Positions 29,275 through 31,730 of a DNA stretch of 64,000 nucleotides are shown here, piece by piece. This DNA comes from a bacterium (lineage in GTDB: Bacteria > Vulcanimicrobiota > Vulcanimicrobiia > Vulcanimicrobiales > SCRA01), in NCBI GenBank assembly GCA_004298675.1, contig SCRI01000038.1, forward strand, positions 1 through 64,000. Reading direction: 5' to 3'. The notes beneath the pieces were generated by a model. It made no database searches and had not been told where the DNA came from. It worked only from the letters and a program-made list of their open reading frames with translations. Numbering within the stretch: the first letter of the stretch is position 1; every line of letters starts with the position of its first letter. A program made the position numbers and the translations under genes.

Positions 29275-29850
29275 TTAGGCTTTGAAGACCGCGGGGACGA
29301 TGCGCGTGAGGCTGCCGCCGCCGACCGCCACGATGAAGACTTTCAAGGCATCACCGATCACAAACGGCGCGACGCCCATGAGGAAGGCCTTGTCGACACC
29401 GACGAAGTGTGAGAGCCAGAGCGCCCCCAGCGAGAAGACCACGAGTTCGCCCGCGATCGTGGCGATGGCACGCCCGATCACGTGGTCGACCAATCCCAGC
29501 TCGAACAGCGAGCCGATGACGTAGGCCGCCAGCGGGAACGACCACAGGTAGCCCGCGGTGGGGCCGATCAGCGCGAGGAACCCGGGCACGCCGCTGGGCG
29601 CGAAGGCATGGAGGCCGGTGGCGCCCTCGGCCAAGTACAGGAACATCGCCGAGAGCGCGCGCCGCTTGCCTAAGAGCGCGACGACGATCGGCAGGGCCAG
29701 GGTCTGGCCGGTGATCGGAACGGGGCTGAAAGGAACGTGCACGGCCACGTGGGCGCCGAGCACCATCAGGAGCGAGCCGGCGACGACCAGCGCGGCGTTG
29801 ACGGCGCGCAAGCGTGCCGCGGGGAGTGTACGGGCGGGCGTTTGACTCAT
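29275..29850 (-). CDS. bioY: Biotin transporter substrate-binding subunit BioY
   Basis: A 191-residue S-component with about six helices. The family pattern is clear in VPFSPVPITGQTLALPIVVA, GKRRALSAMFLYLAEGATGL, GVPGFLALIGPTAGYLWSFP and the end KVFIVAVGGG. It imports biotin alone or with ECF energising subunits, which are not in the window. The ATG overlaps the stop of the MFS gene (ATGA). Confidence 0.95.
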   Translation of the reverse strand: MSQTPARTLPAARLRAVNAALVVAGSLLMVLGAHVAVHVPFSPVPITGQTLALPIVVALLGKRRALSAMFLYLAEGATGLHAFAPSGVPGFLALIGPTAGYLWSFPLAAYVIGSLFELGLVDHVIGRAIATIAGELVVFSLGALWLSHFVGVDKAFLMGVAPFVIGDALKVFIVAVGGGSLTRIVPAVFKA

Positions 29851-31016
29851 CACGGCGAGCTGGTTTCGTATCGTATGGGGGGGCGCCCTGCAGAGTGTGG
29901 GACCAGTGCGATCAGCAGCGCGGCGAGCGCGAGCGCACCCGCGGAGAGCAGCAGCGGAACGCGGAAGTCGCCCAGATGTTGGGCGATCGGTCCCGCGATC
30001 AGCGGTCCGACGATCTGTCCGATCGCGAAGATGAACGTAAGCCAGCCCAGCCCTCGCGCCCCATCGCGCGGATCGAGATCGATGTACATGACCGTCGAGA
30101 GCGGGCCCGAAGTCGGGAAGCAGGCGCCGAAGAGAAAGGCCGCGAGAATCGGCAGCGGCAACGGCCCCAGCGCAAAGACCACCGTGGCAAGCGCCTCCAG
30201 CACTTGAAAGAAGATCAGCCCTAAGCGCGCTCCCATGCGCCGCGCAAAGACTCCGGAGAGCCAGGGACCGATCGTGGCCCCCGCACCGACGGCAAGCCAT
30301 GCTCCCGAAGCCGCGGCGCGCGATTCGCCGCGTTCAACGAGATAGAGCACGGCGAAGGTGGCGAAGACGACGTAACCAACGCCTTGCAAAAAATATGAGG
30401 CGTCCACCAGGCGCAGCGGCAGACCGCCGGTGATGGAGATGCCGGAGGCGGCGCGCGAGGCGATGGGCGGAATGAGCCGCCACGCGATTGCCGTCGCCGC
30501 CAATGACGCCAGCGCGATCGCGTACCAGCCGCGTTCCCAGGGGCCGTGAGCGACGATCGGCGCCAGGAGACCGGCGCCGAAGAAGATCCCGATACCGATG
30601 CCGCCAAACGCGATCATCGCGAGGCCCTGTTCCAGCGTTTCGAAGAGCAGGATGCCGACGCTCACGAAGATCACCGCGCTCTCGATCCCGGCGGCAAAGC
30701 GCGTGAGCACGAGCCAAGCCAGCGCGCCGTTAGAGGCGGTGAGTGCAAGCGTCAAGGCGAGCGTCAGCAGTCCCAGCAGCGCCACGCGCCGCTCGTTGAA
30801 GCGCGCGCACAGGTAGGCCGCGACCAGCGCGCCCGCGAGATATCCGATGAAGTTGGCGGCGGCGATCCAGGCCGCGGCGAGCGCGCTGAGGTGGAGTTGC
30901 TCCACCATCGGCGGCAGCAGTTGCGTATAAGCGAACCGCCCGAGCCCCATTGCCGCCGCCAGGGCCACGACCGCGCCGGCGAGGGCGCCGGCGGGATTGC
31001 GTTCGCGGTGGCTCAG
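29850..31016 (-). CDS. MFS transporter, YbfB/YjiJ-like
   Basis: A 12-helix permease with the family opening ALAAAMGLGRFAYTQLLPPM and a long central loop SRAASGISITGGLPL. It probably exports or imports a small organic compound; the substrate is unknown. The start is unsure: CTG 31016 overlaps the upstream peroxiredoxin stop as CTGA and gives a natural N terminus. GTG 30968 would cut helix 1, and GTG 31055 is a further option. It is coupled to bioY by ATGA. Confidence 0.85.
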   Translation of the reverse strand: MSHRERNPAGALAGAVVALAAAMGLGRFAYTQLLPPMVEQLHLSALAAAWIAAANFIGYLAGALVAAYLCARFNERRVALLGLLTLALTLALTASNGALAWLVLTRFAAGIESAVIFVSVGILLFETLEQGLAMIAFGGIGIGIFFGAGLLAPIVAHGPWERGWYAIALASLAATAIAWRLIPPIASRAASGISITGGLPLRLVDASYFLQGVGYVVFATFAVLYLVERGESRAAASGAWLAVGAGATIGPWLSGVFARRMGARLGLIFFQVLEALATVVFALGPLPLPILAAFLFGACFPTSGPLSTVMYIDLDPRDGARGLGWLTFIFAIGQIVGPLIAGPIAQHLGDFRVPLLLSAGALALAALLIALVPHSAGRPPIRYETSSP

Positions 31017-31579
31017 CCGCCGAGCCTCAGCAAGTTGCGCAGCGCGACACTCCACTGCTCGCGCCCGGGAACGGCGATCGCGCGCTTGGGTGCAACCACG
31101 CCCCCGGGGTTGCCGACCGCCTTCAGAACGTTGGCCGCGGTGGCGCGGCTGGCATAGCCGTCGAGCGAGCGTGCGAGGATGCGGCGATCCCGGCCGATCA
31201 CGAATGTCGCCGGCTTGGCGACGCCGCCGCCCTCGAGCGGGTTGAGCAGGCCCCAGCCCTTGATGGTGGTCCGGTCGACGTCGCACAGCAGCGTCGAGGT
31301 GAGGCCGAGGCGCCGGCGTAACGCCTGCGAGCGCTGGGGTTGATCGGAGGAGAGAAACGCGAGACCGAAGCCGATCTCGTCGAAGCGCGCCGCCAGCTCG
31401 CGGTACTCCGTCAACTGACGGAGGCAGAACGGTCAGTACGCGCCGCGGTAGAAGACCAGGATGAGCGGGCGGCCGGACGTGAGTTCACCCAAGGTAACCG
31501 GAGCGCCGGTGTGGTCGAGGACTTGGAAGTCGGGTGCGATGCTCCCAACGGCGGGGATCGCGGAGCGCGGGGACGCCAT
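31013..31579 (-). CDS. Selenocysteine-containing peroxiredoxin-like protein (in-frame TGA)
   Basis: ATG 31579, preceded by GAGGAGGAAA, opens a peroxiredoxin/AhpC-TSA frame: FQVLDHTGAPVTLGEL, then LILVFYRGAY, then TGA at 31435-31433, then PFCLRQLTEY, and on to the end at 31013. The TGA replaces the peroxidatic Cys of the FYRGxxCPxC motif, giving U49 and C52 (UxxC). A perfect 7-bp stem with loop AGUU begins 9 bases after the TGA, as in bacterial SECIS elements. Total 188 residues. It would reduce peroxides. A Cys-to-stop mutation or sequencing error is the alternative. Confidence 0.82.
31406..31435 (-). promoter_or_regulatory. Candidate bacterial SECIS element
   Basis: On the mRNA strand, UGA (31435-31433) is followed by 9 bases and then the stem CUCCGUC / GACGGAG with loop AGUU (31423-31406). 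The G within the first two loop positions and the apical loop about 17-20 bases from UGA match known bacterial SECIS geometry. Confidence 0.7.
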
Positions 31580-31730
31580 GCTGAAGATTTCCTCCTCATG
31601 CAGTATAGCAGGCGCTTGAAACCCATGGCGGCTCCGATTGCGGCAGTGGGATATTGGTCCTAGCGGCGGCCCGCACGGCGTGCTAGACTGCCATCGCCGC
31701 GCTGCGGGCGGCGGAGGGACCTTGAGGAAG

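Follow-up and report, generated by a model that had tools for sequence, protein, structure and literature searches.

The locus considered here raises the question of whether a TGA inside a peroxiredoxin-like reading frame is a stop codon, an error or a codon for selenocysteine (Sec), and of what kind of protein is made if Sec is inserted. The window analysed is a stretch of 64,000 nucleotides (positions 1 to 64,000 of contig SCRI01000038.1, assembly GCA_004298675.1). On its reverse strand, the frame that begins at ATG 31579 is interrupted by a single internal TGA at 31435-31433 (31433..31435, codon 49) and is otherwise open to the stop TGA at 31015-31013; translation confirms this continuity, which had been noticed from the letters alone. 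The coding sequence (31013..31579, reverse strand) would yield 188 residues with Sec49 and Cys52, and read-through translation around the TGA gives LVFYRGAY-U-PFCLRQLTEYR. A Pfam AhpC-TSA match (PF00578, E 3e-24, 85.6 bits against a cut-off of 26) covers residues 11-134 and so spans the TGA, and the domain is accompanied by a UxxC motif (UPFC). PF08534 also matches (E 8e-15), with PF00578 scoring better. Upstream, the purine-rich sequence GAGGAGG can be seen at 31591..31597 on the reverse strand, 11 nt before the ATG, as a ribosome-binding site, and the sister species has GGAGGA at the same place. A -10-like hexamer, TATACT, at 31601-31607 precedes the ATG by 22 bases and is conserved in both related genomes that were compared; given its position, a transcript start would sit near the ribosome-binding site.

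Mechanical ORF calling returns the C-terminal part of the gene alone, 133 amino acids from TTG 31414 to 31013, just as the sequence-only reading had anticipated for standard ORF callers. That TTG-started frame is also what speaks for two separate proteins, in which case translation would end at the TGA and restart at TTG 31414. Such a truncation, however, would cut the peroxiredoxin fold at its active site, and two further results, given below with the Cys homologue and the frozen TTG codon, make the two-protein reading highly improbable.

Relatives of the gene retain the TGA. An orthologue in a sister species of the same genus is 77% identical and has TGA at the same codon, and dN/dS between the two is 0.19 upstream of the TGA and 0.26 downstream. 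An unbiased scan of 84,980 species genomes used only the part of the protein after Sec as the query, such that Cys forms could be found as well. TGA occupies the codon 49 position in 48/48 of the loci that the scan returned, which come mostly from Acidobacteriota and also from Eremiobacterota, Deltaproteobacteria, Binatota, Actinomycetota and one cultured Nannocystis. The TGA is likewise present in 5/5 strong matches (>180 bits) in the phylum of the window and in 20/20 strong matches in a sample from an acidobacterial class. Conservation of the same TGA in independent loci, purifying selection before and after it and a full set of Sec machinery in the genome all stand against a pseudogene or sequencing error, in which the TGA would be a real stop or a misread TGC or TGG, even though the truncated frame from ORF calling and internal deletions in one same-genus copy point that way. 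Both forms of this explanation were rejected on the conservation of the TGA among homologues, and we regard them as the least probable of all the readings considered.

The deleted copy is found in the same-genus assembly G003 (L055:2020-2184; G003:C118). From the Sec codon almost as far as the C-terminus the sequence is missing, as is a second, shorter stretch; all losses are in frame (FYRGAPGREQW), and most of the domain is gone. This copy is either a relic or an assembly fault. Since it has neither the Sec codon nor most of the domain, the genus has no strict need of the gene. In a quick tree, the window gene groups with its sister only and stands away from the two other Vulcanimicrobiota genes; transfer is possible. 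A second tier of FYRGxWU peroxiredoxin-like (Prx-like) genes, with UPFC, UPYC, UPHC or UPAC motifs (L156-L163, L166-L181), has TGA at the same place, in Acidobacteriota and in the phylum of Nannocystis. By their sequences, these genes suggest a wider Sec-rich group.

A homologue with Cys at the Sec position is one criterion for a bacterial selenoprotein, and such a natural control exists. Among 284 genomes sampled from the phylum of Nannocystis, one strong match, in genome G659 (236 bits, 48% identity with the window protein), carries TGC in place of TGA. The hairpin has decayed in this gene to a best stem of 3 bp, and searches of the 10.3 Mb genome for selA and tRNA-Sec found neither. That a Cys codon and a lost hairpin go together with a genome in which no Sec machinery was detected argues against two separate proteins. 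Within the same 284-genome sample, selA was found in 5/5 TGA-bearing genomes tested and was absent from 6/6 tested genomes without TGA in the match, two of which (G659 and G714) proved on direct reading to have Cys. Less weight attaches to the tRNA-Sec absences, as only part of the candidates were scored and the TGA-bearing G735 also showed none. Nearly absent Cys forms, set against one Cys form without detected Sec machinery, offer a natural pair for assessing the contribution of selenium, here in a protein that combines a peroxiredoxin fold and a thioredoxin-like active site.

The source assembly (3.03 Mb, 98.5% complete) contains the machinery for Sec insertion. Absence of the selABCD genes had been named in advance as grounds for giving up the selenoprotein claim, and selA, selB, tRNA-Sec and selD were all found in the same assembly. 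The first three share one contig, with selA at 543 bits and tRNA-Sec at 71.7 bits, the latter called by ARAGORN as tRNA-SeC with anticodon tca. The selD gene (380 bits, G000:C43:69356-70279, L018) itself contains a UGA, in SSCAGUASKVG. Across the genomes that carry the selenoprotein gene, selA is detectable in 42/46; the 4/46 in which it was not detected are draft assemblies. As a separate count, selA is present in 121/149 genomes of the phylum of the window, apparently Vulcanimicrobiota/Eremiobacterota.

Sec insertion in bacteria also calls attention to the RNA that follows the UGA. The hairpin that the earlier reading had described, with 7 bp, loop AGUU and a start nine bases after the TGA, is present at 31423-31406 (31406..31423, reverse strand) as a perfect stem, CUCCGUC-AGUU-GACGGAG, the loop of which (31416-31413) lies 16 nt past the UGA. 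Published rules for a bacterial SECIS element (bSECIS) specify a loop of 3-9 nt, a stem of 4-16 bp, a G within the first two loop positions, a spacing of 16-37 nt and a minimum free energy of at most -7.5 kcal/mol (PMC13188914). This hairpin conforms to them, with loop AGUU, 7 bp, G second, 16 nt and -11.7 kcal/mol. The window is GC-rich, and 1.8% of its TGA triplets have a comparable hairpin (7-bp Watson-Crick stem, the G rule and 16-37 nt), a rate that rises to 10% when G-U pairs are allowed. By itself, the hairpin is not statistically unusual; it is comparison with relatives that raises it above chance. Single-sequence folding of the region gives z -1.8 and an Rfam scan of it matched no family, and therefore the case for a SECIS rests on comparison.

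Codons +4 to +8 past the UGA are nearly fixed across 46 homologues, such that five synonymously frozen codons lie over the hairpin. Leu is TTG in 46/46, against a share of 21% for TTG among all Leu codons of these genes, and the others are Gln CAG (46/46), Ala GCG (44/44), Arg CGC (43/46) and Leu CTC (40/46). At most other conserved columns codon variety is roughly at background, with one exception, Arg at -4 (CGC in 41/46). The frozen TTG is accounted for by the SECIS, which further weakens the proposal of a restart at that codon. A first count of covariation on 46 similar sequences gave one compensatory pair only. With more divergent members added, compensatory two-sided changes keep pairing at 4/7 stem pairs, which exceeds all shuffles (0/500) and all slid versions. 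Some of these changes alter amino acids: the window gene and its sister have CGT/ACG where others have CGC/GCG, giving a U-A pair instead of C-G and Thr for Ala. The comparative pattern indicates that the SECIS hairpin is under selection as RNA and, by forcing amino-acid changes at times, it clearly illustrates how the structure of an RNA can limit the sequence of a protein.

Nearly all relatives, in several phyla, keep both the TGA and the recoding hairpin, and the gene is for that reason very probably an intact, real selenoprotein gene. The selenoprotein claim of the sequence-only reading is thus upheld on comparative evidence, by the Sec machinery in the genome and by homologues that conserve TGA and SECIS. 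The UGA at codon 49 would be recoded by SelB and tRNA-Sec, aided by the SECIS loop 16 nt downstream, to give a peroxiredoxin-fold protein of 188 residues with a putative UxxC redox pair, Sec49/Cys52, assigned from the motif.

What kind of protein this is depends on where Sec falls in the fold. An AlphaFold model (pLDDT 91.4, pTM 0.89) matches the solved peroxiredoxins BcpB (5epf) and Bcp4 (3hjp) by Foldseek, and the closest solved relatives are BcpB, Bcp4 and AhpE. The earlier claim that Sec sits exactly at the peroxidatic Cys does not hold: in the alignment with solved peroxiredoxins, U49 pairs with the Thr of TxxC, and the residue matched to the peroxidatic Cys is Cys52, three positions later. 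The motif Pro of the peroxiredoxin site is replaced by R45, and the column of the catalytic Arg (R116 in AhpE, a column displayed by the R116A structure 4xih) is P123 here. R45, G46, U49, C52 and P123 are invariant in 46/46 aligned homologues. Thioredoxin-like proteins have a cis-Pro at the place that corresponds to Pro123, and the peroxiredoxin fold thus seems to carry a thioredoxin-type active site, in which a proline stands opposite the UxxC. The name peroxiredoxin, given on first reading, therefore stands for the fold, on the AlphaFold and Foldseek results, and fails for the canonical Sec-peroxiredoxin site, on R45 and P123. Since Sec lies at the Thr of TxxC, with Arg45 in place of the Pro and Pro123 in place of the Arg, the protein is, as judged from its sequence, better assigned to UxxC "Prx-like" oxidoreductases than to canonical Sec-peroxiredoxins.

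Chemistry is predicted along the same lines. Because the protein has other residues where peroxiredoxins have their catalytic Pro, Thr and Arg, and has Pro123 at the cis-Pro place, chemistry of the thiol:disulfide oxidoreductase type is ranked first and seems moderately likely. The Sec49 selenolate would attack an oxidised substrate, disulfide or hydroperoxide; Cys52 would then form a selenenylsulfide and so resolve the intermediate; and the protein would be regenerated by a reductant of the thioredoxin type. Classical chemistry, that is, peroxide reduction with Sec as the peroxidatic residue of a canonical Sec-peroxiredoxin, would suit the fold and its nearest solved structures, and selenols react readily with peroxides. 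It is rather unlikely, however, with Sec on the Thr of TxxC and with Arg45 for Pro and Pro123 for Arg in 46/46 homologues, and TxxU peroxiredoxins have been kept separate from UxxC Prx-like proteins (PMC1088965).

Several known families can be set beside the window protein. A Prx-like thiol:disulfide oxidoreductase (PF00578, UxxC/UxxU) is a predicted bacterial selenoprotein family (PMC1794560, PMC9312934, PMC13188914), with which the window protein has in common the AhpC/TSA fold, UxxC, a bSECIS and a genome with the Sec trait. The two were likened by description (the example being WP_010940744.1), and they may be the same family or sister families. A UXXC Prx-like protein from the Sargasso Sea selenoproteome was also likened by description, in its distant peroxiredoxin homology and thioredoxin-like UXXC replacing TXXU, but that protein was assigned to COG0450 and has Cys homologues beside its Sec forms (4 Cys, 22 Sec; PMC1088965). 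The window protein fits the Prx-like UxxC selenoprotein of the literature, later called "Prx-like thiol:disulfide oxidoreductase" (PMC1088965, PMC1794560, PMC13188914). A Redoxin family protein (PF08534, UxxC) is listed as well (PMC13188914), and is likened by description to the window protein through UxxC and the PF08534 match. The Sec-peroxiredoxin PrxU (TxxU) has the same fold and superfamily, and its model NF040737 is weakly matched by 11/17 members; PrxU, however, has Sec at the peroxidatic position, and the window protein has it three residues earlier. The best NCBIfam match, common to 17/17 members scanned, is the SelL-related redox protein NF040769, but the window protein scores 44.9-45.1 bits, below the cut-off of 120. 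The SelL name denotes UxxU selenoproteins, whereas the window protein is UxxC.

None of the NCBIfam models reaches its cut-off with the window protein. In literature searches, no paper turned up that mentions selenoproteins together with Eremiobacterota, and none on this UxxC Prx-like protein in Acidobacteria. The gene is a real member of an already predicted kind of protein, in a mostly-Sec subfamily. Whether that subfamily is a distinct one is evenly balanced: it would be a nearly all-Sec group of peroxiredoxin fold (FYRGxWUPFCLRQL) with a thioredoxin-like site and an almost invariant SECIS, spread across Vulcanimicrobiota, Acidobacteriota, Myxococcota, Binatota and other bins. A Cys form would occur rarely, in genomes that seem to have lost the Sec trait; the group lacks a curated NCBIfam model, and annotation pipelines presumably cut its genes short. 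On the evidence above, truncated-looking genes in these soil phyla are intact selenoprotein genes, of a group unnamed by curated NCBI models.

Downstream of the selenoprotein gene, adjacent and co-directional with it, are an MFS_4 transporter gene (29850..31012, reverse strand, start provisional; PF06779, E 2e-60), the open frame of which starts upstream, inside the selenoprotein gene, and a bioY biotin transporter gene (29275..29860, reverse strand, start approximate; PF02632, E 4e-30). An operon of the three had been proposed. Adjacency and direction agree with it, and an MFS coding sequence lies directly 3' of the gene in the sister species too, but the MFS arrangement does not extend beyond the genus: across the 46 loci compared, any one neighbour recurs at 3 at most. 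With no neighbour common across phyla, the operon gives no clue to function.

Two further peroxiredoxin-fold genes with a TGA were observed in the same genome. The first, FFRGTWUPRCRKQL (G000:C50:17132-17614; L051, L132; also L053, L054, L056), is found in all four genomes of the genus and has a bSECIS-compliant hairpin with its loop 21 nt after the UGA. The other, FYEGAGUGACQTQL (G000:C74:194789-195313; L061, L134), has a 6 bp hairpin with loop GGUCG 20 nt after the UGA. The SECIS hairpins of both are plausible.
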